Shown here: positions 1,462 through 35,717 of the stretch, in pieces
Numbering within the stretch: the stretch's first letter is position 1
Layout: each line of letters opens with the position of its first letter
Source of the DNA: Mucilaginibacter sp.
GTDB lineage: Bacteria; Bacteroidota; Bacteroidia; Sphingobacteriales; Sphingobacteriaceae
Assembly (NCBI GenBank): GCA_028287805.1
Contig: JAQBOY010000158.1
Location: 1 to 37,398, forward strand
DNA: 37,398 bases
Direction of reading: 5' to 3'
The notes under the pieces: model-generated
What the model saw: only the letters and a program-made list of their open reading frames with translations
What the model was told of the DNA's origin: nothing
Database searches by the model: none
Translations under genes and position numbers: made by a program

Positions 1462-3018
1462 CTACTTATTAAAAAAGCTGTCCAGTAGCACATATCTTTT
1501 AAAATTCTTTTCCGGTTGCGACTGGCTGTTAACATCGATCACCATTACTTTAGGGATGCTGCTTTGCAAGCCATACCAGGTAGCCAGTCCTTCTCCGTTC
1601 GGGTTACCTGTTTTTATAAAATTGGCAAAATAAGTTTCCATGGTTTTCGATACTTTATAATCATCCGGTGTCCAGGCGTAAACTTTATTATATGGTAAAT
1701 TACCTAAAGCATATTCAATTTCTGATGCATGCGCCGCGCCAAGAGAATTTGGGTTATCCTGGCCGTTGACCATTGGAGGACGTTTGCGCGAAAACAAGTA
1801 CCGGTAAACCGGGAAGCCATTTGTTTTGCTATGCAGATCAATAAATTTCCAGGTAGCATAGGCTATAAACCTGTCGGATGCCAGGTCGGTAGCCGCCTGT
1901 GGTACATCGGCATCAGCTGCAGCCGGGTATAATTTTAATACTTCAGCCGTACGATCGCCATAAACTTTCTTTAAAGCGTTTTGATAAGCATCTAATGTTG
2001 GCGCTTCCTTACCCAGCAAGTTATCATACCCCACCTCCGCCGAGTTCCATCCTGCCAGTAGAGGTATATTCATTTGCCTGCCTGTTGCGAAGATGGCTTG
2101 CGGCGTTTCAGGTAAAAAATAACCGTCAACTGTATTGGGAAAATGTGATGATGCAGATAGCTCCAATAATTTATCAGCAGGTATTTTTCGAAGATCAGCT
2201 AATGATGTCACATTAATTTTTTCGGCAAACTTAACACCGTTTTGTTCGGCTTCAGCTAATGGTACAGGCGACAAATTTCCTAAAACAGATCCGCTCTCGG
2301 CAATAGCACCTGCAAACAAACGTTTTGACAATGGCGATGCCATTTGCGCACATACGGACATTGAACCTGCAGACTCACCGGCTATGGTAACTCTTTTTGG
2401 ATCACCGCCAAAGGCGGCTATATTTTTTTGCACCCACACTAATGCAGCATGTTGATCCATTAAGCCATAATTGCCCGACGAATGATGCAACGATTTCCTG
2501 GTAAGATCGGGATAGGCCAAAAATCCAAATACACCCAGTCTATAGTTTACCGTAAGGGTAACAATCCCTTTTTTTGCCATGCTTTCGCCGTCATACCGGT
2601 ATTCTGATCCATCACCGGCATTAAAACCGCCGCCATAGAAATAAACCATTACCGGTAATTTTTCCTTAGCCGATTTTGCTGGTGTCCAAACATTCAGATA
2701 CAGGCAATCTTCACTTTTACCATCGCTCCTGAAGATCATATCACTGTAAATAGTCCGCTGCATCGCCTGCGGACCGAAATGATCTGCATGGCGAACACCA
2801 GTCCAGTTTTTGGGTGGCACAGGTTCTTTCCAGCGAAGATCGCCTACCGGTGGCCGGGCAAAAGGGATTCCTTTAAATGAACGTATACCGCTTGCTTCTG
2901 TAACGCCCTGCACTATACCGTTAACTGTTTTAACTTGGGGAACACGATCAGTTTGGGCAAAGGTAACGCCTGTTTTTAAAAAAAATATCAATAATAAAAG
3001 ACCGGTAATTTGTTTCAT
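1462..3018 (-). CDS. Secreted type-B carboxylesterase
   Basis: A 518-residue alpha/beta-hydrolase of the para-nitrobenzyl esterase/cholinesterase type. It has a Sec signal peptide of about 21 residues (MKQITGLLLLIFFLKTGVTF, then AQ), the family start G.V.G......FKGIPFA.PP, an oxyanion hole GGGF near 129-132, and the nucleophile elbow GESAG with Ser about 216. Candidate acid and base residues are the Glu in NSAEVGYDN and the His in GAAHASEIE. Length is normal. In a mannan locus a role in removing acetyl or other ester groups is plausible but unproven, because this family is promiscuous. It is the last intact gene of the leftward cluster, 66 bp after the GH30 gene, and probably co-transcribed with it. 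Confidence 0.9.
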   Translation of the reverse strand: MKQITGLLLLIFFLKTGVTFAQTDRVPQVKTVNGIVQGVTEASGIRSFKGIPFARPPVGDLRWKEPVPPKNWTGVRHADHFGPQAMQRTIYSDMIFRSDGKSEDCLYLNVWTPAKSAKEKLPVMVYFYGGGFNAGDGSEYRYDGESMAKKGIVTLTVNYRLGVFGFLAYPDLTRKSLHHSSGNYGLMDQHAALVWVQKNIAAFGGDPKRVTIAGESAGSMSVCAQMASPLSKRLFAGAIAESGSVLGNLSPVPLAEAEQNGVKFAEKINVTSLADLRKIPADKLLELSASSHFPNTVDGYFLPETPQAIFATGRQMNIPLLAGWNSAEVGYDNLLGKEAPTLDAYQNALKKVYGDRTAEVLKLYPAAADADVPQAATDLASDRFIAYATWKFIDLHSKTNGFPVYRYLFSRKRPPMVNGQDNPNSLGAAHASEIEYALGNLPYNKVYAWTPDDYKVSKTMETYFANFIKTGNPNGEGLATWYGLQSSIPKVMVIDVNSQSQPEKNFKRYVLLDSFFNK

Positions 3019-3084: not shown

Positions 3085-4470
3085 CTACCAGACATAGGTA
3101 GCTACAGCGCCACCATCCAGGCTTGAAGCAAATCCCCTGCCCTTACAGGATACATTAAAGATTTGTGTTGATTTGCCCTTATTCGCCACAATCAGAACTG
3201 TTTGACCTGCGGGAGTTTCAAAAGCGACATCGGACAATACACCGGGCAGCGAACTATAGACCCGTACCGAATTATCCGGTATAAATTTAGAGGCATGCGC
3301 AATGGTATAATAAGCCAAGTTTCTGCTTACCTTATCACCATCAATAGTTATAGCTCCCTGGCATCCTGCACAACCGCCGTTATCGGTGTGAGGTTTATTG
3401 TTCGGGTCGGCCGCAATATTCCACAATATCACATTGCGGCTCCAGTTGCGGGTGGCCCCTATCACAATCCTGTCTTCTGGGTTGGCTACATTAAAATCGT
3501 TATGGCTTACCGCCATCATTTCGGTAAAATAAACACCCTTATCAGGGAAAGCGTCATGAACCTTGCTGAGTGCCGTGATAGGGCCAGCATATAAATGAAA
3601 GCCAGAGCCTGCAGCATATTTACGCGCTTCGGGATCAGTTAATATGGTAATTGGATATTCAGGCGCATCGCAGTTATGATCATATAAAATGATCTTGGTT
3701 TTAATACCCGCAGATTTAAGGGCAGGACCTAAATCATTCTTGATAAAATCAAGCTCTTGTCTGGCTAAAAACTGCATACTTGGCGTATTGCCATTATTAA
3801 ATGGTTCATTTTGCACAGTAACAGCATCAATGGTAATGCCGTGCTGTTTCATGCCTTTAATATACTTAACAAAGTATTGAGCATATACCGGGTAATATTC
3901 TTCCTTTAGTTTACCGCCCTGAATGTTATCATTACTTTTCATCCACAACGGAGCAGACCAGGGAGAACCCAATACTTTAATTTGGGGGTTAACCGCCAGT
4001 ATCTCTTTCATCACCGGTATCACATCCTTTTCATCTTCTTTTAAAGTGAATTTCTCCAGCCGGGTATCCGTTTGACCGTCAGGAAGATCATCATATGAAA
4101 ATGTATGATCATTTAAATCAGACGAGCCAATGCTCAATCTTAAATAACTGATGCCAACATTGTTTTCCTCATGACCGAATAATTCCTGTATCAATTTTTT
4201 GCGCTCATTAGGGGACATCCGCATCATATTTTGGGCGCTTCCACCTGTTAAAGCAAATCCAAAGCCGTCTACTGATTGATATTTTTGCGATGGGTCAACA
4301 ACAATAGTCGCGGTACTATTGAGCGACTGGCCAAACGACAAAGGCGATTGTTTAGCCAATAGTGATTTTTTATCATTGGTGGTAAGCCACCAATCAACTT
4401 TAGTTTGAGCATAGCTTGTATACACTTGTGCTGTAAAGGTTAATATTAAAGCAGATTTTAATAATCTCAT
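3085..4470 (-). CDS. Secreted GH30 glycoside hydrolase
   Basis: 461 residues with a signal peptide ending near YTSYAQ. The GH30 hallmarks are VDGFGFALTGGSAQ near 68-80, LRLSIGSSDLN near 110-120, SPWSAPLWMKSN near 169-180, the acid/base in TVQNEP (Glu about 222) and the nucleophile in YFTEMM (Glu about 317). The beta-sandwich fringe at the end (ASSLDGGAVATYVW) completes the family architecture. GH30 includes beta-glucosidase, endo-beta-1,6-glucanase and beta-xylosidase activities, and I cannot fix the subfamily. It differs clearly from the second GH30 here and is not a recent duplicate. A predicted promoter with the locus-wide 14-bp element lies in the 130-bp gap upstream, so it can start its own transcript. 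Confidence 0.9.
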   Translation of the reverse strand: MRLLKSALILTFTAQVYTSYAQTKVDWWLTTNDKKSLLAKQSPLSFGQSLNSTATIVVDPSQKYQSVDGFGFALTGGSAQNMMRMSPNERKKLIQELFGHEENNVGISYLRLSIGSSDLNDHTFSYDDLPDGQTDTRLEKFTLKEDEKDVIPVMKEILAVNPQIKVLGSPWSAPLWMKSNDNIQGGKLKEEYYPVYAQYFVKYIKGMKQHGITIDAVTVQNEPFNNGNTPSMQFLARQELDFIKNDLGPALKSAGIKTKIILYDHNCDAPEYPITILTDPEARKYAAGSGFHLYAGPITALSKVHDAFPDKGVYFTEMMAVSHNDFNVANPEDRIVIGATRNWSRNVILWNIAADPNNKPHTDNGGCAGCQGAITIDGDKVSRNLAYYTIAHASKFIPDNSVRVYSSLPGVLSDVAFETPAGQTVLIVANKGKSTQIFNVSCKGRGFASSLDGGAVATYVW

Positions 4471-4600: not shown

Positions 4601-7600
4601 CTATTCCATAAAAGTGATATTATTTATCCTAATAATGGCATCATTGGGCTTTGTACGCTTTACAGCATAAATGTATACATCATGCCTGCCAGTTATTGGG
4701 TTGATTAAATTACCGGTTATCGTATTGGCTTTATCAAATGATCCCGTTTGCCGGTAAGCAACGGTACTGATCACAGGCCCTGCCTGCGAATCCATATGTA
4801 CCACTATATCGCCATCTGCATTTTTGGAGCCGTAGTTATAAATAAATTGTTTAATACCGGTCAAGTCAATATCTTTCATTAACAAATAAGCATTGTTGCC
4901 GCCTTCGGATAGTTTATCTCGAAATCGCGGAAAACCTAAATAGCCATCCGTAAAAGCGGCATTTATGTCTGTACCGTGCCGCAATGTAATAATATCCTTT
5001 CCCTGTAAGGGCCCAACTATCTTGCCTCCCCTATCGGTGTAGGTAGCCACAATCGTATACTCGCCGCGTGGTTCACTATCATTATACTTTAAGATGAGCT
5101 TTCCATGCATCGGTATGGATATCACATTGTTTGCCTTCTTATCCGTTAAAGAATAAATATATTTTACAATTTCGCTGGCATCGGTCACCGATAACTGCGG
5201 GTGAGCGCTCATAACAAAGTCTTTGCTCCAGCTTCCGCCACCGCCGCTAATTATTTTTTGGGCAAGCTTGTTAACATATCCATCCCGTTTTTTATAACGA
5301 TTGGCGATAGCTGTAAAACTTGGGCCAACAGCCTTTTTATCAATTTGATGACACGATTTACAATCGCTGGCAGCCATTAAAGCTTTGCCGGGATAGTTGC
5401 TACCGCCTAGTATTTTAACCTGATCAGCGTGAGTATAATCAACTGGTTGTGAATTATAAACATAAAATGCCTTAACACGGGCCGGATCAATTTTTTTATC
5501 CTCCTTATCCTTTACATTGATGCTGTACACAAATGGCTTGTCTTTCCAGAAAAAAGATTTATTGCCGGGGCCGGCAATGGTTACCACCGGTGCTGTATTA
5601 CCTGCTTTAACGATAACCGTATCTTTCGCAGTAGTCCCTGCCCTATCAGTTACTTCTAATATCGCTTTATAAATTCCCGGTTTACGATAAGTATAAACGG
5701 CATCCATTGTTTTGGCGCCTCCCCTTTTGCCATCAAACAACCATTCATAGGTTAGCTTATCGTCATCATCTAAATCCATGCTGTTTTTTCCGGAAAAGCT
5801 TACTTTAAGCGGCACTTCACCGCTGATAGTTTTTATTGCTTGAATGTTTTTAGTGTCAATCGTCAAATAAGCCCGCTTGTTAATTTTTGCCATTTCTGCT
5901 GAATCGATTATGGTAGCTTTCGCTATAGGTGGCCTGTTGCCGGTATTGTATTCAATTTTTACCAGGCTGGCATCCTCATTGGCTACGCCATAAATTGAGC
6001 CATACTCTAGCATATACATTGTACCGTCCTTGCTGAATACCATATCAATTGGCCGCCTAAAATCACCGTTGGCTGCCATAAATGATTCCGTACGTACGAA
6101 GTTCTCATTTTTATCCAGTTCAACCGTCATCAGCCAGTTGCGCATCCAGTCGGCTATAAATAATTTACCATCGTAATAATCCGGAAACTTATTTGGCGAG
6201 CCGCCATTAGGGTTAAACACATAAACGGGACCACCAATGGCGCAACGTCCGCCAAAACCCAGTTCAGGCCAAATATCCGAAGCCGTATACGGATACCAGA
6301 TCATGGCAGGCATGGCCGGTGGCAATTGGTTTAACCCTGTATTATTAGGCGAATTATTTACCGGTGCTTTCGGATCAAATACCGGGCCTGCTGTATTAGT
6401 CGCAAAGTTCCAGTGGGAATATGGCAGGTTATTCGCTTCAAAATAAGGCCAGCCAAAATTGCCTGCTTTTTTTGCCTGGTTAAATTCGTCGTAACCACGA
6501 GGACCCTGCGGTCCATCATTCCCTGCGTCCGGCCCGGGCTCTCCCCAATATAAAACAGAAGTTAGTGGATTGACGGATATACGGTAAGGATTACGCACAC
6601 CCATTACATATATTTCAGGCTTTGTTTTAGCCATTCCCTTAGGGAAAAGGTTACTTTCAGGAACGGTATAGCTACCATCCGCTTCAGGATGGATACGCAA
6701 AATTTTACCTTTAAGATCATTAGTATTACTGGCGCTGCGCTGTGAATCTCCACTGTAATGCTCCTTTTCAGGGCGTTCGTCCAGCGGCGAATAACCATTT
6801 GAGGAAAACGGGCTGGAGCTATCACCCGTAGACAGGTATAAATTCCCATCCTTATCCCAGGCAATAGAACCGCCATGATGCGAACCGCTGTTTTTTTGGA
6901 CAGGCACCTTTAGCATCACTTTTTCTGATGCCAGGTCAATAGTATTATCATTCCCTAAGGTAAACCTGGAAAGCCGGAAATATATCGGTTCGTCATCCTG
7001 TCCGCCAGGTGCATAATACATATAGATAAAATTATTTTGAGTGAAGTTCGGATCAAGCCCCAACCCGATAACACCTGTACCTCCTGTCGTAGTTACCGGG
7101 AACTTATGGATTAATTTCAACTGGTGCGTTTTGAGATTGAATACCGATAATTCACCAAAAAGCTGCGTAAAAAACACCCGTCCGTCATCGGCAACAGCCA
7201 GCGTCATCGGCGAATTCAGTTTAGTTGCCAATAAGGTTTTTACAAACCTGTTTTGATTGGGGGTAACTTTTGCATAAGCTTTACTATAGTCCAGTTTGCC
7301 GTCACCCATGGCATATTTAATACCACCGGAAAGGTGCTGTAAAAATAAAGGTTCGCTGTAACTCTCGTCAGTATGACCCAAACCAGTGTAAAATGCACGG
7401 CCGCCGTCATAGTCATGGTACCAGGCTATGGGGTGATTTGTACCATTGGTTCCACCTTCGTAAGTAGCTTCATCCAAATAGGCCAGTACTTTAATATCCG
7501 GGTAAAGGGAGCGGTAATTATACCACTCATCATTACGTTCCCAGTGATCGGGAAAACCAGCAGTGGCAGGGTGATTTTTATCGACCACATTAATAACAGC

Positions 7601-8062
7601 CGTACGAATGTTTGAATTAGGAACGTTAGGGATATTGGGATGACTTTCAAAATAAGCGCCTGCCAGCTTTCCATACCAGGGCCAGTCATATTCTGTATCG
7701 GCTGCGGAGTGTACACCTACAAAGCCGCCGCCAACCTGTATGTAACGCTCAAAAGCAGCCTGCTCTTCACCGTTAAGCACATTACCTGTAGTATTTAAAA
7801 ATACAACCGCCCGATATCTTTTTAAGTTATTATCATTGAAATTAGCGGCATCAGTTGTAGTATCAACCGCGTAACCATTTCGGGCACCTAATTTTTTTAT
7901 AGCAGCTATACCTGCAGGAATAGACGTGTGGTGCCAACCGGCCGTTTTTGAAAACACTAAAATTTTAGGCTCAGCGTAAACGCGCCTTTCACTGGTTACA
8001 AATGAACACAGCAGCGATAAAGCCGTTAATAAAATCCCGGCTGTTTTACTTTTTAAATACAT
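4601..8062 (-). CDS. ThuA / PQQ sugar-dehydrogenase propeller / PKD / cytochrome c fusion protein
   Basis: A 1153-residue secreted multidomain protein. In order: signal region (1-30); ThuA-like domain (about 33-255; KILVFSKTAGWHHTSIP, GGGFVGVHSAADTE, HPIAWYHDYDGGRAFYTGLG); soluble aldose-dehydrogenase-type PQQ six-blade propeller (about 265-705; GSHHGGSIAWDKDGNLYLS, VMGVRNPYRISV, FIADWMRNWL); PKD domain (about 745-820); class I cytochrome c with haem motif CKSCH (901-905) and a likely Met ligand near 951; and a C-terminal beta-domain (about 1020-1153) resembling a CBM6-type module. The parts suggest oxidation of a sugar at PQQ with transfer to the built-in haem. ThuA-like proteins are linked to keto-sugar metabolism. 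The substrate is unknown. It lies 21 bp after the stand-alone ThuA gene and ends the oxidative block. Confidence 0.9.
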   Translation of the reverse strand: MYLKSKTAGILLTALSLLCSFVTSERRVYAEPKILVFSKTAGWHHTSIPAGIAAIKKLGARNGYAVDTTTDAANFNDNNLKRYRAVVFLNTTGNVLNGEEQAAFERYIQVGGGFVGVHSAADTEYDWPWYGKLAGAYFESHPNIPNVPNSNIRTAVINVVDKNHPATAGFPDHWERNDEWYNYRSLYPDIKVLAYLDEATYEGGTNGTNHPIAWYHDYDGGRAFYTGLGHTDESYSEPLFLQHLSGGIKYAMGDGKLDYSKAYAKVTPNQNRFVKTLLATKLNSPMTLAVADDGRVFFTQLFGELSVFNLKTHQLKLIHKFPVTTTGGTGVIGLGLDPNFTQNNFIYMYYAPGGQDDEPIYFRLSRFTLGNDNTIDLASEKVMLKVPVQKNSGSHHGGSIAWDKDGNLYLSTGDSSSPFSSNGYSPLDERPEKEHYSGDSQRSASNTNDLKGKILRIHPEADGSYTVPESNLFPKGMAKTKPEIYVMGVRNPYRISVNPLTSVLYWGEPGPDAGNDGPQGPRGYDEFNQAKKAGNFGWPYFEANNLPYSHWNFATNTAGPVFDPKAPVNNSPNNTGLNQLPPAMPAMIWYPYTASDIWPELGFGGRCAIGGPVYVFNPNGGSPNKFPDYYDGKLFIADWMRNWLMTVELDKNENFVRTESFMAANGDFRRPIDMVFSKDGTMYMLEYGSIYGVANEDASLVKIEYNTGNRPPIAKATIIDSAEMAKINKRAYLTIDTKNIQAIKTISGEVPLKVSFSGKNSMDLDDDDKLTYEWLFDGKRGGAKTMDAVYTYRKPGIYKAILEVTDRAGTTAKDTVIVKAGNTAPVVTIAGPGNKSFFWKDKPFVYSINVKDKEDKKIDPARVKAFYVYNSQPVDYTHADQVKILGGSNYPGKALMAASDCKSCHQIDKKAVGPSFTAIANRYKKRDGYVNKLAQKIISGGGGSWSKDFVMSAHPQLSVTDASEIVKYIYSLTDKKANNVISIPMHGKLILKYNDSEPRGEYTIVATYTDRGGKIVGPLQGKDIITLRHGTDINAAFTDGYLGFPRFRDKLSEGGNNAYLLMKDIDLTGIKQFIYNYGSKNADGDIVVHMDSQAGPVISTVAYRQTGSFDKANTITGNLINPITGRHDVYIYAVKRTKPNDAIIRINNITFME

Positions 8063-8083
8063 GGTTAAACTGTGTATATTGTT

Positions 8084-8851
8084 TTAATCTTTTTTTATAC
8101 GGACTGTAGTTACTTTGGCGTAATCAAGCTTTATATTATTACCCATAGCATATTGTATACCTGCAAGTATATGCTGTACAAACAACGGGTCAGTATAAGC
8201 TTCCGGAAAATGCCCTAGTGCGGTATAAAATGCGCGTCCCCCGTCAAAATCATGATACCATGCCAGCGGATGATAAGCACCATTTGTACCACCTTTGTAG
8301 CTGAATTCATTAGCCGTTAATAGTACATGTACATTAACAGGTACCAACTTAAAATTATACCATTCATCTTTCCATGACCAATGAGAAGGTAACTGTCGTA
8401 CAGCGGGGTTTTCGTGATCAACCACGTTGACCACACCACCCTGCGGTTCAGGATGATTGGAGAATACAGCGCCGACCAACTGACCATACCATGTCCAGCT
8501 TTTTTCTGTAGACGACGCGCAATGGATGCCCATGTAACCGCCGCCAGCCTCAATATATCTTTTAAATTCTGTTTTTCCCACCGTATCCAGCACATTGCCG
8601 GAAGTATTTAAAAAAATGATTGCAGCATATTTTTTCAGCTTACTTTCTGTAAAATAAGTACTGTCGGTGGTTGTATCTACCTCAAAATGGTTTTCCCTAC
8701 CAAGCTTTCGAATAGCTTTAATACCGTTAGGAATAGATTCATGGTGATATTTTCCGGTTTTGCTGAATATAAGTACGCGCTTTGCCTGTGCAGCAACAAA
8801 CAAAACATTTGCGATAAAAAATAAAATCAGGCTCGCTTTTTTTATCATCAT
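8084..8851 (-). CDS. Stand-alone secreted ThuA-like protein
   Basis: 255 residues: a signal peptide (ending near LFVAAQA), then one ThuA/glutamine-amidotransferase-like domain with VLIFSKTGKYHHESIPNGI, GGGYMGIHCASSTEKSW and HPLAWYHDFDGGRAFYTALG. It is a clear paralogue of the N-terminal domain of the next gene downstream (4601-8062), sharing the order of all main motifs, so the locus carries both a fused and a free copy. Its ATG immediately follows the TAA of the Tat esterase with no gap. A strong AAGGAGG Shine-Dalgarno lies inside the last codons of that esterase, so translation is probably coupled. A second ATG follows directly and could be the real start. The catalytic role of ThuA domains outside trehalose/disaccharide keto-sugar metabolism is unsettled. 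Confidence 0.88.
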   Translation of the reverse strand: MMIKKASLILFFIANVLFVAAQAKRVLIFSKTGKYHHESIPNGIKAIRKLGRENHFEVDTTTDSTYFTESKLKKYAAIIFLNTSGNVLDTVGKTEFKRYIEAGGGYMGIHCASSTEKSWTWYGQLVGAVFSNHPEPQGGVVNVVDHENPAVRQLPSHWSWKDEWYNFKLVPVNVHVLLTANEFSYKGGTNGAYHPLAWYHDFDGGRAFYTALGHFPEAYTDPLFVQHILAGIQYAMGNNIKLDYAKVTTVRIKKD

Positions 8852-8868
8852 TTAAACCTCCTTATTAT
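8849..8868 (-). promoter_or_regulatory. Stop-start junction with strong Shine-Dalgarno
   Basis: On the minus strand the esterase end reads AATAAGGAGGTTTAAATGATG. AAGGAGG is a full anti-Shine-Dalgarno match, the esterase stop TAA is directly followed by the ThuA ATG, and a second in-frame ATG follows. Strong Shine-Dalgarno sequences are rare in Bacteroidota, so this site decides the start and suggests coupling. Confidence 0.7.
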
Positions 8869-10528
8869 AAAATATCCGTTCCAGTAACCGGCGGGCTTCG
8901 CCATCGGGATCATGACGAACTTCACATTGGTTATTAAATACCATCATCGCGCCGTTGCTCTGCTTAAAGGCCGGCCATTCCGGGAGGTCTTTATGATTGG
9001 GATTACCATGGCGTGCAAAGCTTATCCAGGCCATAGCTATCTTTTTACTCAGCTTTTTTGCTTTCCCGCTGGCACCCGTATAGTTTTCACAACGGTCGGT
9101 ATTATAAAATGCAAAGGGGATCTCACTGCAATGGAATGAACGTGGTCGACCGTCCAACATAGGGGTGTGCCATGCAAACATATATAAGTATGCGGGTGCG
9201 GCATCTTGTTCGGCTTTACGGCGTGCCTGCAAAAACGCCATTGGATTTTGAGCGCTGATATACGAAAGTATTTCCACAGGTTTTACATTCGGGTGTACTT
9301 TTCTTAGCACCTGGTAAATCTCTTCACCTCTGGTATTGTACTTTTCTGTTATTCGTTTTTTGAGTCCTGCCTCGTCCAACTTTTCAAGCGGTGCATTATT
9401 AATGCTTGCTGATGCCTCGTTTCTGGTAGTACCTACCAAGAATGGCACACTTGCTGATATTGGCGGCGCAACCGGGTCAAAAGGATGCGTTGGCAGTAGG
9501 CGACCATCAACCACAGGCTGCAAGCCGGAACGGCCTACATTAGCAGGAACTGCCGAACCCATTTTACGCTCTGCATAAGCTATAGCCTCTACTAAACGCG
9601 GCGCTTTAACCCGATGTATCTCTGCTATTTTTTCGCGACTAATGTTCAGATCGGTCAATACATGCGCAGTTATTTGCGTAGCATATTCATGCGTTGCTAC
9701 CTGTACGATAGAATTACTTTCTGATATTGCCTTATGAAATAATCCTTTCGCAGAAGGCATAGCCATCAGGGTAATTACCTTTGTACCACCGCCTGATTGA
9801 CCAAATATGGTCACATTATCTTTATCACCACCAAAATTACCGATGTTATCGCGTACCCATCCCAGTGCGGCCACAATGTCCAGCATGCCCACATTTCCCG
9901 AGGATGCATATTGGCTTCCATAATCAGATAAATCAAGATAGCCAAATATATTTAGCCGGTGATTAATAGATACTACGACCACGTCACCAAGCTTACTTAA
10001 ACTCTCACCATCATAAGATGGATGCTCCTGGCTTGAACCGGAGAAGAATCCTCCACCGTGGATCCAAAGCATTACCGGTCTCTTTTTGCCGTCATTTAAT
10101 CCCCGGGTCCACACATTCAGCCGTAGGCAATCTTCATCCTGGTAACCATCTACCCATTGATATAAAAACCCATATTCTTCCTGTAACCAACCGCTATCAG
10201 GTCTTTGCGGACTAATTGGGCCATATACCAAACAATCGCGAACATCTGCCCATGAAGTTGGTTTTTTAGGCGGCATAAAACGATTTTCATTACCTGTAGG
10301 CGCACCGTATGGTATACCTTTAAAGGTATACACTTCATTACGTGTATATCCCCTCACCTTTCCGGCTGTTGTAGCAGCAACAGCATTATTTGCAGAGGCA
10401 ACTATGCTCATTTCCTCATGATCAGGTAATTTTGCTGCCGACGCTACTGAAGACAGCGTTCCTCCCAAACCTGATGCAGATGCCAACAAACCGGCCTTTC
10501 GTAAAAAATTTCTCCTGCTATTTGTCAT
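8852..10528 (-). CDS. Tat-exported type-B carboxylesterase
   Basis: 558 residues. The N-terminus has a twin-arginine signal (SRRNFLRKAG followed by a hydrophobic stretch and SVASAA), so it is exported folded. The core is the carboxylesterase type-B fold: FKGIPYGAPTG near 69-79, oxyanion hole HGGGFF near 157-162, and nucleophile elbow FGQSGGG with Ser about 245. Candidate acid and base are the Glu in GTTRNEASAS and the His in RSFHCSEIPFAF. It is only distantly similar to the esterase at 1462-3018 (GESAG elbow, Sec signal). Its start overlaps the end of the VCBS gene by 11 bp and its stop touches the ThuA start, so these genes are tightly co-translated. Tat export next to redox proteins is unusual for a simple deacetylase. 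Confidence 0.9.
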   Translation of the reverse strand: MTNSRRNFLRKAGLLASASGLGGTLSSVASAAKLPDHEEMSIVASANNAVAATTAGKVRGYTRNEVYTFKGIPYGAPTGNENRFMPPKKPTSWADVRDCLVYGPISPQRPDSGWLQEEYGFLYQWVDGYQDEDCLRLNVWTRGLNDGKKRPVMLWIHGGGFFSGSSQEHPSYDGESLSKLGDVVVVSINHRLNIFGYLDLSDYGSQYASSGNVGMLDIVAALGWVRDNIGNFGGDKDNVTIFGQSGGGTKVITLMAMPSAKGLFHKAISESNSIVQVATHEYATQITAHVLTDLNISREKIAEIHRVKAPRLVEAIAYAERKMGSAVPANVGRSGLQPVVDGRLLPTHPFDPVAPPISASVPFLVGTTRNEASASINNAPLEKLDEAGLKKRITEKYNTRGEEIYQVLRKVHPNVKPVEILSYISAQNPMAFLQARRKAEQDAAPAYLYMFAWHTPMLDGRPRSFHCSEIPFAFYNTDRCENYTGASGKAKKLSKKIAMAWISFARHGNPNHKDLPEWPAFKQSNGAMMVFNNQCEVRHDPDGEARRLLERIFYNKEV

Positions 10529-12149
10529 TTTTAGTGTTTGATACTATTCGTTCTGTCGTTTTATGAATCGATGTCGTGTTTTTAAGTATAATAAACAACG
10601 GTTCCTTGTGCTTACTGGCGCTAGCACTTGTAAAATAACCATTGCCTAAAATCAAGTCAGTTTTCCCGTCTCCGTCCAGGTCCGCTGCATCCATGGTAAT
10701 GCCTTTTTGAAAAGGTATATTGGCAGGTAAGGAATAAGGTTGAAAATTAAAATTTCCTTTATTTTCCAGGTAAATAAACGCCTCTTCCGGCTGATGATCT
10801 GAAGGATAGAAACTAACTGTTGCAATATCCAAATCTCCATCGCCGTCAAAATCACGTGCTATTGCTTTGTAACAGCCATTTATAGGGTAAAAATATCTCT
10901 GCGCAAAGTTGTTTTTACCGTCGTTTAAAAAGATGTATACACCGTGGTACGGCTTTAATACGCGTGTATAGTCCCCGTTATCCCCACAGGTATAAATAAT
11001 ATCCATGAAGCCATCATGGTTAAAATCAACGAGGTCAAATGAAGTAGACCCATAAGATGGCGGAAATCTTAATACCTGCTGTTCTTTAAATTCGCCATGC
11101 CCTTTATTAGTATACAAAAAAACGCCCTCTTCACCCTGTGCAAACTGAGCCCATAAATCAGGTAGCCCGTCATGATTATAATCCTGAACGATAGTCCCTA
11201 AAGCCCCTGGTTTTTTTCGCAGCACATGAGATTTATATTTACCATCACCTGTGTTTTCCATCCATGACAAATCACCTACCATGTTTCCAAATTGCGATAT
11301 AATAAAATCTTCTTTGCCATCCCCGTTAAGATCGGCGCGCGTAATTTTTACCGGCCGTGCCAGTTTATCAAATAAGGGTTTATTGTCTGCTTTTATTTTA
11401 CCTTGTTTATCAAGCGCAATACCCCTGATTTCACCGTTTCGTAAGTTATTAGCTTCCAAATTAGCACCTATGCTACATACCAGTATATTACCAGGCTTTG
11501 AATTAATATCAACGATAGAGCCGCTTACCCGGGCAGCAAATAATGTTTTAAGATGATCATCAAGCACTACAAACCTGTTGTTTATACCATCGCTAATCAA
11601 TATATGGTGTGGTGTTACCGTCGTATCAATTTTTACGTAAGATGTCATGGATACGGTGCCAAAAAAAACGGATTCGGGTAACTGTACATCAAAAAAGGGA
11701 AGGTGTTTAATTACAGAAACCGACTTTTTTTGTTCGGGCATCCTGTTAGGCGCCGTATTCACAAAATAAGCTATAATATGACTCCATTTAACAGAATCAA
11801 TTATTGGCTTAACGGGGAAATAAGACGGGCTAACATCGTTAGCCCGTGCATAGCTTTCGCCCCAAAAAGAGGTATATCCTAAAAATGGCCCCATACGTGG
11901 CAAAATACCTGTATACCACATCTCTTTGGTTAATAATGACGGATCGGGAAGCATATGGCAGGTACGGCAATATTGCCCCGCTAACATTCTACCATCCTGT
12001 AAATCTGCGGCGTTCGCTTTTGGAACCTTGGCAAAACCAGAGCCGGTATCAGGAATATTATTAACTGTAATTACGATAAAAATACCAATCGTAAACAAAA
12101 TGGCGATAATGATTGAAACGGTTGTGTGTGTGTTGATCCAGTTATTCAA
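10518..12149 (-). CDS. Membrane-anchored haem-motif VCBS/FG-GAP repeat protein
   Basis: 543 residues with one N-terminal membrane segment (about 11-30), followed by a haem-c attachment motif in YCRTCHMLPDP (61-65). Then comes a beta-propeller with at least five calcium-binding FG-GAP loops: DLNGDGKEDFIIS, DYNHDGLPDL, DFNHDGFMDI, DFDGDGDLDIA and DLDGDGKTDLILG. The family is usually annotated as VCBS or FG-GAP repeat protein with unknown function. The haem motif plus membrane anchor suggests a periplasmic electron carrier or a surface binding protein. The start codon on the track is TTG: no in-frame ATG precedes the membrane segment and a stop (TAA) lies just upstream, so TTG is the best choice. 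It overlaps the Tat esterase by 11 bp and is 339 bp downstream of the DUF1735-type gene, with a broken gene between. Confidence 0.82.
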   Translation of the reverse strand: MNNWINTHTTVSIIIAILFTIGIFIVITVNNIPDTGSGFAKVPKANAADLQDGRMLAGQYCRTCHMLPDPSLLTKEMWYTGILPRMGPFLGYTSFWGESYARANDVSPSYFPVKPIIDSVKWSHIIAYFVNTAPNRMPEQKKSVSVIKHLPFFDVQLPESVFFGTVSMTSYVKIDTTVTPHHILISDGINNRFVVLDDHLKTLFAARVSGSIVDINSKPGNILVCSIGANLEANNLRNGEIRGIALDKQGKIKADNKPLFDKLARPVKITRADLNGDGKEDFIISQFGNMVGDLSWMENTGDGKYKSHVLRKKPGALGTIVQDYNHDGLPDLWAQFAQGEEGVFLYTNKGHGEFKEQQVLRFPPSYGSTSFDLVDFNHDGFMDIIYTCGDNGDYTRVLKPYHGVYIFLNDGKNNFAQRYFYPINGCYKAIARDFDGDGDLDIATVSFYPSDHQPEEAFIYLENKGNFNFQPYSLPANIPFQKGITMDAADLDGDGKTDLILGNGYFTSASASKHKEPLFIILKNTTSIHKTTERIVSNTKNDK

Positions 12150-12429
12150 TTCCCCATTGTTTTAAACCGAGTTGTTGTGGTAACGTTTACAATAAGTATA
12201 GTTATCGTATCATTCCAGCTAGTGCCAGTAAACAGATTGAACATTGGTTCCGGTGTTGGTGAACGTAACAACCAGTGCATTAGCGGACGAATTGTTATAT
12301 GTAAAAACTGATGTAGGCTTTGGGCCGTCAGTAAAAAACTGATTTAAATACCTGGTCTTTTTGACAGGAAGTGATCATGACAATAAAACAGGTGAGGAAC
12401 GACAGGTGTTTAGTAGTTAATTTTTTCAT
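12146..12429 (-). pseudogene. Frameshifted PKD-domain lipoprotein remnant
   Basis: On the minus strand an ATG at 12427-12429 starts MKKLTTKHLSFLTCFIVMIT followed by SCQKD, a lipoprotein signal with a lipobox cysteine. That frame stops after 33 codons. A shifted frame then reads QFFTDGPKPTSVFTYNNSSA and VTFTNTGTNVQSVYW, a recognisable start of a PKD domain (compare the usual YWDFGDG). That stops too, and a third frame (SWNDTITILIVNV) runs to a TGA at 12146-12148, next to the VCBS start. At least two frameshifts in under 300 bp make it a pseudogene. It sits where the surface-lipoprotein gene of a Sus-type operon usually lies, so it was probably a third surface glycan-binding protein. It fills most of the gap between two intact genes. 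Confidence 0.65.
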
Positions 12430-12488
12430 AGTTTATTTTTTTAAGCCACCGGTTATGTCAGCCGGTTTAGTAACTGTAAATAATGTTC

Positions 12489-13073
12489 CTAAATCAGTTT
12501 TAAAGCGTCCACATTTATAATAACAATCACCTTGTTATTTATAGGGCTTAACGTATATTTATTAGGGTTTGAAATAGTTATACAAAGCGCCACTATTTTG
12601 CCTGCAAATGTTTTTAACTGCGTTTCATCAATAACCAGATTAAAGTTTGTCATGTATTGGCCCTGCGGAACCGAAACAGTGGCAGGCAGTGTGTAGGCAG
12701 CACTTGGTAAAAGCACCACCGGCTTGGTTGAGCTTATGGTATTGTTGGCAATAAGTTGAGCAATCGTATCAGCTCTGGTAGAGACAGTTACAGAATAAGC
12801 ATCATAGGCTTCCTTTCCTGACCGGGTTACCCCCAAGTAAACATTTACTTTATTATTAGCTTTATCGATTTTATAATTATAGGTAGCGCTATCCATCCCG
12901 GACGGTACCATATAATTAAGATTTACCCCGCCGGATACCGTTGATTGCGGTATATAAATATTGGTTAAACCAAATGGCGTATTACTATCCTTTTTGTCAC
13001 AACCCGTTAAAGAGTATATTAGGGCCGCCGTTAACAAAAAAGTTAATTGTCTGGTGTATTGTTTAAGTTTCAT
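12489..13073 (-). CDS. DUF1735 (BT_3987-like) surface lipoprotein
   Basis: 194 residues: a lipoprotein signal with lipobox LTGC near 22-25, followed by a beta-rich domain (IYIPQSTVSGGVNLNYMVPS, then YNYKIDKANNKVNVYLGVTR, LPSAAYTLPATVSVPQGQ and VVLLP). This is the layout of the DUF1735 domain found in SusE/SusF-position proteins of Bacteroidota loci, which sit on the outer membrane and often bind glycans. Many family members carry a second domain after DUF1735, whereas this one ends right after it. It lies 30 bp after susD and is probably in the same transcript. Function is inferred from position and domain. No enzymatic residues are visible. Confidence 0.75.
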   Translation of the reverse strand: MKLKQYTRQLTFLLTAALIYSLTGCDKKDSNTPFGLTNIYIPQSTVSGGVNLNYMVPSGMDSATYNYKIDKANNKVNVYLGVTRSGKEAYDAYSVTVSTRADTIAQLIANNTISSTKPVVLLPSAAYTLPATVSVPQGQYMTNFNLVIDETQLKTFAGKIVALCITISNPNKYTLSPINNKVIVIINVDALKLI

Positions 13074-13103: not shown

Positions 13104-14789
13104 TTAATAACCGGGGTTTTGCTTAAGGGTACCGTTTGAATTAGCAATTTCGGCCTGTGAAAAGGGATAATAATAATTAGCCGGTGAATTAAAAGTTCTT
13201 ATAGCTACGTTTACTTTCTGGTATGCAAAGGTACCTGTACTGGTTTTAGTTACAGCTACACCTGTAATAGGTTGATTTAATACAGTTGCAGCGTTATTCC
13301 AGCGTAATAAATCCCAATAACGATGATCTTCAAAAGCCAGTTCAATTCTTCTTTCATGTTTAACAGCATTACGAAAATCTGAAACAGAGGTAATGGTAAC
13401 TGCCGGTAATGAAGTGCTTGCCCTGTCCCTAACCATTTTTAAGGCCTGCCTTGCTGTAATTGCATAACCTGTAGGTAAATTATCAGGGCCGTAAGCTTCA
13501 TTCATTGCCTCCGCATAATCCAACAGTATTTCAGCATAACGAAAAACCACCCACTGGTTTTGTGCAGTTCCCCCTTGTACCAGGTTTAAATTATCTGTCA
13601 GGAATTTTTTTAGATAGTACCCGGTTTTACTGGTATTGGCATTGGCCATATCATCAATGCCACCCGGAGCTTCATTAATTGTGCGGTTGTTCCAGGCACT
13701 GCCATTAGTTACAATACTTGCTGTTAAACGGGGATCGCGGTTATTGTATGGGTTAGCGGGATCAGGTATGCCAATATATTCATAATCAGAAACCAGGTTG
13801 TCAGAGGGGACCTCCCCGGTTTTTCCGCCTGGGGTAGCTATTGGATAATTATCAGTTTCGATTGTATTATTAGCGGGTCTGCGTACAGCAAATATGGTTT
13901 CATTACTTGAAAGTGGATTTGCGCCTGTAAAATAAGCACCATAACTGGTAGCTAAAGAATAGTTTAACCCGGTTGTAGTCATCACATCCTTTGCAGCAGC
14001 AGCGGCTTTTTGCCATTTTGTTACATCATTTGCAGGATTGTGAAGCGGACTTGCAGCGTATAATAAAACGCGCGCCTTTATGGCCAATGCAGATCCTAAT
14101 GAAAAACGGCCATCATTACCTGCAAAGCTGCTGGTTTTCCAGTTAACCTGCAAACCAGCCTTATAATTATCAATTTCTGATACAATATAACTTATCACAT
14201 CATCATAACTTGACTTTGCTACATACTCATTGCCGGCTTGTTGTAAAGTTGAAGTGATTATTGGCACACCACCCCAACGTTTAATCAATTCTGAATAATA
14301 ATAAGCACGAGCTATGTGCGCTTCAGCAATATACCATGCCAAATTTTGAATGTCATTTTTGTAATTCACCGCATCGTTGATGGTATCGCGGTTAAGTGCA
14401 AGAAATTGACGGCCATTTACAGCATAACTTAGAAAAAAATTAGCTGCCCTTATACCATTGTAATAGGTTTTGTAGAGGCCGGCATCGGGATTATTGTTTG
14501 GATTTAACCCGCCCTGGTTAAAAATCATAGCGTTTGATATGGGTGCGATTTGCTGTGCTTCATCAGAAGCGGATGCAAAAAGATTATTATCAAGGACAGT
14601 GAAGCCATATTGCAATGACGTGTAAAAAGCGTTTCCAAATGAGAATAGCGTGCTGCGGTCTGTAGCTGCCGCGGTTGGTGTTTCGAACGTGTCGATTTTT
14701 GTTTCCAAAAAGCTTTTTTTGCAACCTAAAAATGCAAAAAGAAGAATGACTGCAGGAATAAGTATGTATTTATGTTTCATATTCATCAT
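13104..14789 (-). CDS. SusD/RagB-family outer-membrane lipoprotein (pair 1)
   Basis: 561 residues with a lipoprotein signal (ILLFAFLGCKKSFLET, cysteine about 23). The alpha-helical SusD fold is recognisable from NLAWYIAEAHIARAYYYSEL, KRWGGVPIIT, the repeated LAIKARVLLYAASPLHNP and the C-terminal ERRIELAFEDHRYWDLLRW. SusD proteins cap the SusC channel and hold the oligosaccharide for import. It directly follows the 988-residue SusC (16 bp) and precedes the DUF1735 lipoprotein. It is clearly diverged from the other SusD in the window, so the two pairs probably bind different glycans or different parts of one glycan. Confidence 0.93.
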   Translation of the reverse strand: MMNMKHKYILIPAVILLFAFLGCKKSFLETKIDTFETPTAAATDRSTLFSFGNAFYTSLQYGFTVLDNNLFASASDEAQQIAPISNAMIFNQGGLNPNNNPDAGLYKTYYNGIRAANFFLSYAVNGRQFLALNRDTINDAVNYKNDIQNLAWYIAEAHIARAYYYSELIKRWGGVPIITSTLQQAGNEYVAKSSYDDVISYIVSEIDNYKAGLQVNWKTSSFAGNDGRFSLGSALAIKARVLLYAASPLHNPANDVTKWQKAAAAAKDVMTTTGLNYSLATSYGAYFTGANPLSSNETIFAVRRPANNTIETDNYPIATPGGKTGEVPSDNLVSDYEYIGIPDPANPYNNRDPRLTASIVTNGSAWNNRTINEAPGGIDDMANANTSKTGYYLKKFLTDNLNLVQGGTAQNQWVVFRYAEILLDYAEAMNEAYGPDNLPTGYAITARQALKMVRDRASTSLPAVTITSVSDFRNAVKHERRIELAFEDHRYWDLLRWNNAATVLNQPITGVAVTKTSTGTFAYQKVNVAIRTFNSPANYYYPFSQAEIANSNGTLKQNPGY

Positions 14790-14805
14790 GTACTATTTTT
14801 AATGA

Positions 14806-17772
14806 TTAAAAGGTAGCTGTTAAACCCATATTAACTGATTTGAGTGCAGGGTAGCCACTGCTGTATGTCTCCGGGTCCATGTGATAATTTTTAAGCAAAC
14901 TACTCCAGGTAACAGGATTAACGGCATTTACATAAATACGGAGTTTTGAAAGCTTAAGCCTGCGAATTAAATCTGAACTAAAGGTATATCCCAGTTCTGC
15001 ATTACGTATGCGCAGGTAATCACCGCTTTTCATCCAGAAGGTGCTTGGCCGGTAATTATTGTTATTGCCGGTGGTAGTTAACCTAGGATAATTAGCAGTT
15101 GCCCTGGTATCAATACCCTGATCAGGATAATAAGCCCAAGCGCCCTGTGCAATGCTGTACACATTGCCGTTATTAACAAATGCAACGGTTTGCGGGTTTA
15201 AAGTAGTTGATGTTGAATTTGCATAAAGTATATTAACACTTGAGCCGCTGGTTCCCTGGAAAAATACCCCCACATCAAAACCCTTGTAATTGAGATTGCC
15301 GCCAAAAGAATAAGTTAGTGTCGGGAAAGGCGACTTGCCGGTTGCAGTAACATCGGTTTGGTCAATTTTTCCGTCTCCATTCAAATCTTTGTATTTAATA
15401 TCACCGGGCTGTACTTTACCAAATGCAGGCACAGCCTCCCCGCTTCTTAAGGAGCCGTCGGCATTAAAATCACTTAACTGGTAAAAGCCTGTAGCTTCTA
15501 AACCAATAGGCGTACCAAGGGGCCGGCCTGTTTGCGCATTATAAGGATAAGCTGTAGGTACCTCCGCTTCATAATCTATCCGGTTTTTATTGTATGAAGC
15601 CATGCCTGTAATTGTATAACCGACCTGGCCCGACTTATTACTATAGGTTGCACTGGCCTCAAAACCTTTATTGGTCATTTTCCCAACATTTCTGAAAATA
15701 AGGTTATTTCCGAAATCGCCCGGAATGGAATTATCCAATGTAATAATATCACTTCTTTTATCCATAAATGCATCCAGGGTGACATTTAATCTTTTAAATA
15801 AAGTTAAATCAGTACCTATGTTATATTTAATACTTTGTTCGGCGAAAATGCCGGGATTAGCAATAAACAGCGGATTAAGGATGCCCGCCTGGGTTGGCGT
15901 ACCATTACCCTGATAAAACAACCCGGTTGTAGAGGTGGCTCCTGTATAATATTGCTGGTATAGGAAACGGCCATTTGAACTGAATGATCCTATGGTATTT
16001 CCGACAGATTGTGAATCAGAACTGCCGGTTTTACCTACGGAAGCCCTTAGCTTAAAGAAGCTCAAAACCGGGTTTGCCTGTAAAAACGATTCATTGGAAA
16101 TTATCCACGCGCCGGATATAGCAGGATAGAAGCCCCACCGGTTTCCGGGGGCATAGGAATCTGTACCGAAATAGGAGAACCCAAATTCACCCACATAACG
16201 GTTTTTATAAGTATAATTAGCCTTGCCGCTGATATCCTGGTAATGATAAATATAACCAAACTGTCCATCGCCCCTAAAATCAGATTGGTCATAATTAACC
16301 GCAGATATGACATGATGGTCGCCAAACTGCCTGTCATATCCTATCGAATAAGTGGCTTGTTCCCAGTTTTCCTGTAATACCGGACTTTCAGTGGTGGCAA
16401 CAATTGGGGTAGTTTTATCAGTAGTGGTGGTTGCACCGTTAAAATAACGTGCATAAGTAGCGGTTTTATTATAGGAGCTTACAGAGTAACTATTAAACGA
16501 GACTGCCTCATCCATATACAAACCCTTGGTAATAAAGTCGAGTTTTTCCTTTAGTCCGAAATTACCCTGCAGAACTTTGGTATGGGTAGTTAAAAACCCC
16601 AAACCGGATATGGAACCCAAAGGGTTATTCGGATAAAGTGCCGTTCCGGATAATTGTCCATTAACTGTGGGCGGGTAAATATTATCAGGATAATTAGCCA
16701 AATCATTAAAAATGTTTGCCGTTGAATAATTTAATGCACCATTTGAGGCGTTTCCGTTAACCGGATAATTAGGCATTCTGCGGTCTTCGAGCCTTCCTCC
16801 CAGGTCAACACGTGCTTCAAATATGCTAAACATGCTAAAGTTAAGGTTTGTGCGCAGGTTGTACCGGCTCAACATTTGGTTAGAAGTTACGTCGGTATTA
16901 CCTGCATTATATAATCCTTGTTGATTAGCATAATCAAATACTACATTATAACGTGCAGCGGTGTCGCCGCCATTAAAGATTAAATCGCCATCAGTATAAG
17001 GGGTGTGATTTTTCAACACTTGTTTGTACCAATCCACATTTGTGCCCGTTCCGTTTTGGTAGCCCTGTAATTGTGCTGCTGTATATTTAGGTGTCCATAT
17101 GTTGCCATTATCATTACTGACAGCTTCATTATAAAGCGTGGCGTAGCCGTACGAATTAAGCGGCTTATTAATATTTTCAGGGCTTTGAAAACCGGTACGC
17201 GTTTGAAACTGTATGGTTGGCCTGCCTATTTTTCCTCTTTTGGTAACTACCCATATTACACCGTTAGCGCCACGCATTCCAAATGTGGCAAGCGATGCGG
17301 CATCCTTTAAAATACTTATGCTCTCCACTTCTGCTGGAGCCAGGTAGGAGAAATAATTCTCATTAACTTCAAAACCATCCACAAAAATTTTAAAAGTATT
17401 ATAACCATTGGTGTTGGTTCCAACTCCATATGTACCCATGCCACGTATACCCAGGTTGGCGTTATCATATCCAGGTTCGCCTGAACCCTGGCCTACGGTT
17501 AGGCCCGGTAACCGGCCGTAAAGTGTATTGGTAATATTAGGTGTGGGCGTATGATATAATGTTTCGCCGGAAACAGTGGAAACTGCGCCGGTAGAATTTA
17601 TCCTGTCGGAATTAAACAACCTTCCCGGTACCATTTCTGAAGATTTACCAGCTTTAATGGCACTGCTATCGGAAAAAGTTGTTGCCCGGTTTGTTTGAGC
17701 CATTAACTGGCCGGCAGCTGCCGCAAGCATTGTCCCGATCAACAAGCTCCTTAATAAATATAGTTTATTCAT
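14806..17772 (-). CDS. SusC/RagA TonB-dependent transporter, short form (pair 1)
   Basis: 988 residues. Signal peptide (LLIGTMLAAAAGQLMAQ), then directly the plug domain with STVSGETLYHTPTPNITNTL, YGRLPGLTVGQG, VESISILKDAASLATFGMRG and ANGVIWVVTKRG, then the 22-strand barrel ending MGLTATF. The carboxypeptidase-D-like N-terminal extension present in the other SusC of this window is absent, as is an obvious TonB-box segment of usual length, so energy coupling may differ. Only about 30 residues of low complexity separate the signal from the plug. It imports oligosaccharides together with the SusD downstream. It lies 37 bp after the second SusD gene. Confidence 0.92.
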   Translation of the reverse strand: MNKLYLLRSLLIGTMLAAAAGQLMAQTNRATTFSDSSAIKAGKSSEMVPGRLFNSDRINSTGAVSTVSGETLYHTPTPNITNTLYGRLPGLTVGQGSGEPGYDNANLGIRGMGTYGVGTNTNGYNTFKIFVDGFEVNENYFSYLAPAEVESISILKDAASLATFGMRGANGVIWVVTKRGKIGRPTIQFQTRTGFQSPENINKPLNSYGYATLYNEAVSNDNGNIWTPKYTAAQLQGYQNGTGTNVDWYKQVLKNHTPYTDGDLIFNGGDTAARYNVVFDYANQQGLYNAGNTDVTSNQMLSRYNLRTNLNFSMFSIFEARVDLGGRLEDRRMPNYPVNGNASNGALNYSTANIFNDLANYPDNIYPPTVNGQLSGTALYPNNPLGSISGLGFLTTHTKVLQGNFGLKEKLDFITKGLYMDEAVSFNSYSVSSYNKTATYARYFNGATTTTDKTTPIVATTESPVLQENWEQATYSIGYDRQFGDHHVISAVNYDQSDFRGDGQFGYIYHYQDISGKANYTYKNRYVGEFGFSYFGTDSYAPGNRWGFYPAISGAWIISNESFLQANPVLSFFKLRASVGKTGSSDSQSVGNTIGSFSSNGRFLYQQYYTGATSTTGLFYQGNGTPTQAGILNPLFIANPGIFAEQSIKYNIGTDLTLFKRLNVTLDAFMDKRSDIITLDNSIPGDFGNNLIFRNVGKMTNKGFEASATYSNKSGQVGYTITGMASYNKNRIDYEAEVPTAYPYNAQTGRPLGTPIGLEATGFYQLSDFNADGSLRSGEAVPAFGKVQPGDIKYKDLNGDGKIDQTDVTATGKSPFPTLTYSFGGNLNYKGFDVGVFFQGTSGSSVNILYANSTSTTLNPQTVAFVNNGNVYSIAQGAWAYYPDQGIDTRATANYPRLTTTGNNNNYRPSTFWMKSGDYLRIRNAELGYTFSSDLIRRLKLSKLRIYVNAVNPVTWSSLLKNYHMDPETYSSGYPALKSVNMGLTATF

Positions 17773-19648: not shown

Positions 19649-19668
19649 ATTACAATTATTTATAATAA

Positions 19669-25806: not shown

Positions 25807-25851
25807 ATGTTTATATATTTGACTATTAATTTTTTTATTGATTAAGTATAA

Positions 25852-27678: not shown

Positions 27679-27687
27679 TTATATAAA

Positions 27688-30118: not shown

Positions 30119-30127
30119 AAATGCTTA

Positions 30128-32517: not shown

Positions 32518-32519
32518 AA

Positions 32520-32951: not shown

Positions 32952-32972
32952 TATGTTTAATTAATCAGAATT

Positions 32973-33971: not shown

Positions 33972-33979
33972 GCTGAAAT

Positions 33980-35614: not shown

Positions 35615-35717
35615 AGGCTGATAGCTGTATTTAATCAGGACCGGCAAACATTTAGCTTACCTGCCTGTCACTAATGATGATTTAAATGACCGGTTTATAA
35701 TCTATAATTGATTGTTC

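Follow-up and report, generated by a model that had tools for sequence, protein, structure and literature searches.

A mannan utilisation locus of Mucilaginibacter sp. encodes a secreted protein of 1153 amino acids whose domain matches and predicted structure support an architecture like that of sugar dehydrogenases combining PQQ with haem. With moderate confidence, and by analogy with the fungal AA8-AA12-CBM1 pyranose dehydrogenase, we regard this fusion as an accessory quinohaemoprotein sugar dehydrogenase that was recruited to mannose-glycan loci. It is encoded on the minus strand at 4601..8062 of the window (the whole 37,398-nucleotide stretch of DNA analysed) and comprises a signal peptide, a ThuA domain (residues 33–251, 7310..7966; Pfam PF06283, E 3.7e-79), a propeller of the soluble glucose dehydrogenase (GSDH) type (about residues 266–720, 5903..7267; Pfam E 1.3e-37), a PKD domain (residues 749–816, 5615..5818; PKD_4, E 1.7e-8), a class I cytochrome c domain (residues 892–972, 5147..5389; PF00034, E 2.1e-8) and a CBM6-type carbohydrate-binding domain (residues 1061–1151, 4610..4882; PF03422, E 7.7e-10, above cut-off). 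All the domains called in a first-pass annotation of this DNA were confirmed, and the C-terminal CBM6-type domain is one that it had overlooked. The literature search found no paper describing this type of fusion.

The assignment of the propeller to the GSDH family PF07995 rests on a profile score above the curated cut-off (130.3 bits, cut-off 25) together with a six-bladed propeller fold. The structure predicted for the fusion by AlphaFold (mean pLDDT 82.3, pTM 0.73) matched the solved GSDH quinoproteins 2ism (TMt 0.82) and E. coli Asd 2g8s (0.79–0.80), as well as sGDH (0.63–0.66), the ThuA-like proteins 4jqs/4pxy (0.72–0.74; 0.72 for 4jqs) and the fungal AA12 structure 6i1t (0.57). Across 76 fusions, H395 (sGDH His144) and R490-N491 (Arg228-Asn229) are invariant, and the Gly-Pro pair corresponding to sGDH Gly247-Pro248 is nearly always kept (G520 in 72 and P521 in 75 of the sequences). 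Further invariant features of the propeller are a WMRNW motif at 639–643 and R670; Arg669/Arg670 fall near sGDH Arg406/408, in a region where the alignment is unsure. Two of the residues by which sGDH contacts PQQ or substrate differ, with Gln76 replaced by G or L and Lys377 by M. The haem site comprises CKSCH at 901–905, and C901, C904, H905 and M951 are invariant in 46 sequences. The CxxCH motif, the distal axial ligand M951 and the match to PF00034 (Cytochrom_C; 35.8 bits, cut-off 21.3) are together those of a class I cytochrome c.

The closest analogue that we can name is CcPDH of Coprinopsis cinerea, composed of an AA8 cytochrome b, an AA12 PQQ domain and a CBM1 (PMC6881789, PMC4332668). 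Each is one secreted protein that combines a six-bladed PQQ-type propeller, a fused cytochrome and a carbohydrate-binding module, and the two have the catalytic His, Arg and Asn in common and are both without sGDH Lys377 and Gln76. Fungal AA12 proteins, which likewise have neither Lys377 nor Gln76, make contact with PQQ through their counterparts of these three residues (PMC6881789); when mapped via the sGDH alignment, H395, R490 and N491 of the fusion match the PQQ-site residues His363, Arg430 and Asn431 of AA12. Further features specific to AA12 are a Trp563-Asn564 loop, His560 and Arg273; at what indirect mapping suggests is the position of the loop, the fusion has the invariant WMRNW. PQQ binding and activity of the fusion are predicted. 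The fusion differs from CcPDH in its c-type haem in place of the AA8 haem b, in its extra ThuA and PKD domains, and in its domain order. With sGDH of Acinetobacter and Asd/YliI of E. coli it shares the GSDH fold (TMt 0.63–0.80) and the catalytic core residues, but these are single-domain proteins, whereas the fusion adds haem, ThuA, PKD and CBM6 domains and has different substrate-site residues. The PVC-type haem-binding CxxCH proteins (TIGR02604; DUF7133-HEAT-cytochrome c), which in these genomes sometimes lie near SusC/D or ThuA genes, resemble the fusion in joining a propeller-type N-terminal part to a c-type haem. Membership of the fusion in TIGR02604 was considered and rejected (30.8 bits against a cut-off of 122.2; HEAT repeats were not found in the fusion).

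All the genes of the window described here lie on the minus strand. The fusion gene is separated by a 21-bp gap (8063–8083) from that of a free secreted ThuA protein (255 aa, 8084..8851; Pfam ThuA E 7e-75), which abuts at 8852/8851 (0 bp) the gene of a 558-aa carboxylesterase type B with an RR (Tat-like) signal (8852..10528; Pfam E 1.3e-97); this in turn overlaps by 11 bp (10518–10528) an ORF with a TTG start for a membrane-anchored mono-haem c and FG-GAP repeat protein of 543 aa (10518..12149; CRTCH motif; Pfam FG-GAP E 1.7e-32), termed the haem/FG-GAP protein below. The positions and spacings of this four-gene block reproduce those of the first-pass annotation. Upstream, a 340-bp gap (12150..12488) holds the degraded remnant of a lipoprotein gene (beginning MKKLTTKHLSFLTCFIVMITSCQ). 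A terminator scan of this gap found no terminator-like site on the minus strand, and promoter matches in it were at chance level only; a transcript common to the block and susC is plausible. Beyond the gap are a BT_3987-like lipoprotein (12489..13073; PF08522), a second SusC/SusD pair (13104..17772) and a first SusC/SusD pair (17810..22974). In the second pair, SusD (13104–14789) was called by Pfam (SusD_RagB), and the SusC-like ORF (14806–17772) by its BLAST match to SusC-like ORFs of relatives, not by Pfam. On the other side of the block lie a GH30 enzyme (3085..4470) and a second carboxylesterase type B (1462..3018).

The mannan context proposed earlier is real. The mannan-utilisation part of the window (24601..35647) includes GH130 (24601–25806), a GlcNAc_2-epim-family epimerase (30128–31399), an esterase (31342–32553) and GH26 (32973–33971), with an SSF symporter, a further GH30 (the second in the window) and a DUF5060 protein; together with the two SusC/SusD pairs, the GH26, GH130 and epimerase genes make this a mannan polysaccharide utilisation locus. 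The rest of the window holds the set known from Bacteroidota mannan loci (GH26, mannobiose 2-epimerase, GH130 phosphorylase), with SusC/SusD and a symporter. That known epimerase-phosphorylase route is hydrolytic and phosphorolytic, and the ThuA-quinohaemoprotein genes are an addition outside it.

The fusion family is widespread in Bacteroidota, usually outside loci of this kind. Because most of 80 fusion relatives lie away from SusC/D and the kinds of glycosidase seen in the window, a mannan-specific role is not general. Recurrences beside mannose-active enzymes were nevertheless observed. A metagenome-assembled genome labelled Verrucomicrobia (56% GC contig) has the cluster GH30-esterase-GH26-fusion-esterase, in which the two esterases are related to those of the Mucilaginibacter locus and a 60% homologue of the GH30 at 3085..4470 lies near the fusion. 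A GSDH-cytochrome c paralogue adjoins GH76 on another contig (C168) of the Mucilaginibacter genome itself, and two genomes of the genus have GSDH-PKD-cytochrome c-CBM paralogues that are oriented divergently to GH92; these mannosidase neighbours are a post hoc observation. The order esterase-ThuA-fusion recurred once, in Dyadobacter soli, where it follows SusC-SusD and the ThuA is fused on. Two lineages have ThuA joined to the fusion as one protein, and propeller-cytochrome c proteins repeatedly have a ThuA, either fused or as a neighbour. A quick tree built from 102 GSDH homologues groups the fusion of the window with two other Mucilaginibacter sequences (L073 and L066) and not with those of Dyadobacter or Verrucomicrobia, so the mannan-linked cases do not form a single lineage there.

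The four genes of the block, by contrast with their tight packing here, have mostly independent distributions. They were found all together in none of 80 fusion loci, and a search of 80 named loci and 80 relatives showed no conservation of the four-gene set; a set of three, lacking the haem/FG-GAP gene, occurred once, in Dyadobacter soli. The first-pass annotation had combined the four into one oxidative block and had named independent distribution as the outcome that would speak against it, which is largely what was observed: a PQQ/haem-type fusion inside a mannan locus is supported, and the four genes as one system are not supported. The proposed chain, in which electrons from PQQ would reach the membrane-anchored haem/FG-GAP protein through the fused haem and the esterase and ThuA would belong to the same system, could draw on the close packing, on invariant haem ligands in both haem proteins (in the haem/FG-GAP protein C61, C64, H65 and the downstream M86, across 21 homologues), and on two genomes in which a haem/FG-GAP relative precedes a large CxxCH protein (by Pfam, in one of them, DUF7133-HEAT-cytochrome c). 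It is unsupported by gene neighbourhoods and we consider it very improbable: the haem/FG-GAP gene flanks the fusion in 0/80 fusion loci, is paired with ThuA or the fusion in 0/17 of its own loci, and elsewhere lies beside SusC/SusD (often), UnbV_ASPIC, PAP2 or unrelated genes, while in three genomes (G013, G017, G031) that hold near relatives of both the genes are far apart. The haem/FG-GAP protein is probably a companion of the preceding SusC/SusD pair and not of the quinoprotein. It is possible, if unlikely, that the fusion is a general household periplasmic aldose oxidiser of Bacteroidota whose position in a mannan locus is incidental, as suggested by the several paralogues per genome, the usual distance from SusC/D and glycosidases, and the 34 of 62 well-flanked fusion loci that are without a same-strand neighbour within 150 bp; the recurring mannose-active neighbours and the Dyadobacter arrangement after SusC-SusD argue against this.

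The supply of PQQ bears on a further alternative. A profile search detected no PqqC above cut-off in the Mucilaginibacter genome, in 49 relatives or in 297 Bacteroidota genomes (23 weak matches in the 297, all far under cut-off); the same model gave five matches above cut-off in 241 Verrucomicrobia, indicating that it works. With the E. coli K-12 protein as query for the importer PqqU, the best PqqU-like receptors were ~24–32% identical and without the PQQ-binding residues Q84, R304 and R365, in an alignment that is rough for such distant receptors. The idea that a 783-aa TonB receptor adjoining shorter ThuA-GSDH-cytochrome c paralogues is PqqU found no support. Judged from its genes, the Mucilaginibacter host appears to be without a detectable PQQ-making route or a recognisable PQQ importer, and PQQ binding by the fusion is predicted. 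The propeller could then be a redox-inactive glycan-binding scaffold, as in binding by Hedgehog-interacting protein, a binding protein of the same fold that was among the structural matches of the model; ThuA would also bind sugar, in line with the ThuA-like binding domain of a levan-binding surface protein (PMC7618045). We regard this as quite improbable, because the catalytic His and the Arg-Asn pair never vary and every aligned sequence keeps a c-type haem domain, and a mere scaffold would need neither. Least credible to us is a keto-glycoside route, in which the propeller would oxidise a ring carbon of the glycoside and ThuA or an esterase would process the keto-sugar, giving non-hydrolytic cleavage akin in idea to C3-oxidation/elimination pathways. 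Oxidation at C3 with subsequent beta-elimination is an established route in bacteria (PMC10628242), and the repeated association of ThuA with propeller-cytochrome c proteins would fit, but eliminase, hydratase and Gfo/Idh reductase were absent from the Pfam matches of those ORFs that were scanned in the window, and no paper was found that establishes a reaction for ThuA.

For the favoured accessory quinohaemoprotein we infer PQQ binding, substrate, electron path and the roles of ThuA and the esterase as follows. The fusion would sit in the periplasm, where the CBM6-type domain, perhaps together with the fused ThuA domain, would hold the sugar, while the GSDH propeller, with scavenged PQQ and calcium as cofactors, would oxidise a sugar hydroxyl or reducing end; the fused c-type haem would take up the electrons from the propeller and hand them to the respiratory chain. 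The free ThuA protein and the Tat esterase encoded next to the fusion may act on the same material, through acyl removal or the handling or binding of oxidised sugar, and the module would have been recruited into the mannan locus as an accessory branch alongside the GH26-GH130-epimerase route. A broader version is decidedly unlikely: a PQQ-dependent mannose-glycan branch in which the CBM-bearing quinohaemoprotein, ThuA and esterases oxidise periplasmic manno-oligosaccharides with PQQ scavenged from other bacteria, and which spread between Bacteroidota and Verrucomicrobia within mannan clusters. If the fusion is a working quinohaemoprotein, periplasmic sugar oxidation dependent on PQQ made by others would be widespread in Bacteroidota, some mannan loci would couple hydrolysis with respiration, and the ThuA family would gain a testable biochemical context.

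The free ThuA protein keeps 55 of 67 residues conserved across the fused ThuA domains. The esterase at 8852..10528 has a 60% homologue beside the ThuA-fusion in Dyadobacter soli and a 73–74% homologue beside GH92/GH106 in another genome (G019), and homologues of the esterase at 1462..3018 lie beside the fusion or a paralogue in L089 (57%), in L073 (72%) and on another contig of the window's own genome, C372 (63%).

The four genes, all on the minus strand, encode a haem/FG-GAP protein (10518-12149), an esterase (8852-10528), a free ThuA protein (8084-8851) and a 1153-aa fusion protein (4601-8062), and both these ORFs and the overlap, direct junction and gap between them were reproduced as described in the first-pass annotation. 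Pfam recovered the FG-GAP, carboxylesterase, ThuA and ThuA-GSDH-PKD-cytochrome c domains assigned there, together with a CBM6-type domain at the C terminus of the fusion that had not been listed. The closest named relatives of the fusion are from Mucilaginibacter, and the window, an entire contig (C338) of 37,398 bp, belongs to a draft genome of 500 contigs that is 84.9% complete. Since GH26, GH130, an epimerase, a symporter, two GH30 and two SusC/SusD pairs surround the block, "mannan locus" is a fair description. Several damaged-looking genes were seen in the mannan part (23615-24596, 27688-28260, 32607-32951 and 12150-12488): an esterase is fragmented, a glycoside-hydrolase-like sequence is present as an N-terminal piece, a sulfatase-like ORF seems to have an internal deletion, and a lipoprotein gene is left as a remnant. 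These may reflect real decay or assembly error; the four block genes, by contrast, are intact.

The proposal that the four genes form a single system was weakened, because across the genomes compared they are distributed mostly independently. The haem/FG-GAP gene has close homologues (44-52% identity) in ten same-genus genomes, besides many more distant homologues, and its neighbours at 17 fetched loci were SusC/SusD pairs, UnbV_ASPIC and PAP2 genes, or other unrelated genes, in no case ThuA or the fusion. It was likewise found at none of 80 fusion loci from named genomes, some of them short. At one locus (L049, 4654-13913) the row reads SusC-SusD, FG-GAP/UnbV_ASPIC, PAP2, haem/FG-GAP and a DUF7133-HEAT-cytochrome c protein, and L050 repeats it, judged by ORF sizes. 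The fusion had no same-strand neighbour within 150 bp at 34 of 62 well-flanked loci, and the closest same-genus esterase homologue (74%) adjoins GH92 and GH106 genes without ThuA. What co-occurrence does support is an esterase-ThuA-fusion unit, in one independent case: in Dyadobacter soli, SusC, SusD and an esterase (60% identical) precede a 1365-aa protein with an extra ThuA domain ahead of the entire fusion. Such a double-ThuA protein is also present in a Chitinophagaceae MAG. Of 67 residues conserved in the fused ThuA domains, the window's free ThuA retains 55, and several of its differences from those domains recur in the extra Dyadobacter domain.

An AlphaFold model of the fusion (46 sequences; mean pLDDT 82.3, pTM 0.73) best matched solved GSDH-type dehydrogenases: 2ism (TMt 0.82), E. 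coli aldose sugar dehydrogenase (0.79-0.80) and soluble PQQ glucose dehydrogenase, sGDH (0.63-0.66). Hedgehog-interacting protein followed and, below it, ThuA-like proteins matching the N-terminal domain; a fungal AA12 enzyme was also among the matches (0.57). When 76 fusion sequences were aligned with sGDH, H395 (catalytic His144 in sGDH) and R490-N491 (Arg228-Asn229) were invariant and the Gly-Pro pair nearly so, while Gln76 and Lys377 were substituted. Lys377 and Gln76 are likewise absent from CcPDH, a fungal enzyme whose PQQ is contacted by the equivalent His, Arg and Asn (PMC6881789). The haem ligands C901, C904, H905 and distal M951 are invariant. Together, the fold matches, invariant catalytic residues and invariant haem ligands provide good evidence that the GSDH domain is maintained as a redox enzyme, with PQQ binding as a prediction. 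No description of this architecture was found in the literature. On the present evidence the fusion represents a quinohaemoprotein-like family that is widespread and apparently uncharacterised, one member of which has been recruited to this mannan locus.

Searches for PqqC found none in the source genome or 49 relatives, and none above the cut-off in 297 Bacteroidota genomes, whereas the same model gave five clear matches in 241 Verrucomicrobia genomes, a positive control for the search. This agrees with a report that PQQ synthesis genes were not found in 206 Bacteroidota genomes bearing the PQQ receptor PqqU (PMC12124388). In a rough alignment, the best PqqU-like receptors of the source genome and seven relatives lacked key PqqU residues; PQQ dependence of the fusion is thus possible only through scavenging. 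In three genomes (L213, 10816-13167; L215; L216), the shorter paralogue of ThuA-GSDH-cytochrome c type is followed by a non-SusC TonB-dependent receptor of ~783 aa, which could import the product or the cofactor; a related partial receptor adjoins a ThuA gene and a CxxCH protein on another contig of the source genome (C243; L059, 3032-4501).

Most likely, the CBM6-type domain would capture a sugar and the GSDH propeller would oxidise it using scavenged PQQ, passing electrons to the fusion's own haem; ThuA and the esterases would act on the same substrate, either preparing or processing it. A fungal AA8-AA12-CBM1 enzyme likewise couples a PQQ domain to a fused haem, but one of type b. The sugar carbon oxidised, the role of ThuA and the electron path beyond the fused haem we can only infer; as a ThuA-like fold serves as a levan-binding domain in one protein (PMC7618045), ThuA might bind sugar rather than convert it.

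Mannose-related neighbours, met incidentally and without a background rate, are only suggestive of a link between the fusion family and mannan. Paralogues without ThuA adjoin GH76 in the source genome and are divergent from GH92 in two same-genus genomes. In a quick tree, the mannose-linked cases do not cluster together. A locus labelled Verrucomicrobia (L089, 3947-14553; 56% GC, even GC3, label checked by composition only) carries a mannan-type cluster without SusC/SusD, in which homologues of the window's GH30 (3085-4470; 60%), second esterase (1462-3018; 57%), GH26 (32973-33971; 50%), fusion (57-58% overall) and other esterase (58%) occur in that order, along with a regulator combining periplasmic-binding-protein-like and AraC domains; this suggests transfer between phyla. 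The source genome encodes a second ThuA-GSDH-cytochrome c protein on contig C372 (L057; 903 aa, 51% identical to the fusion, no PKD or CBM6 match); the esterase encoded beside it shares 63% identity with the second esterase of the window.
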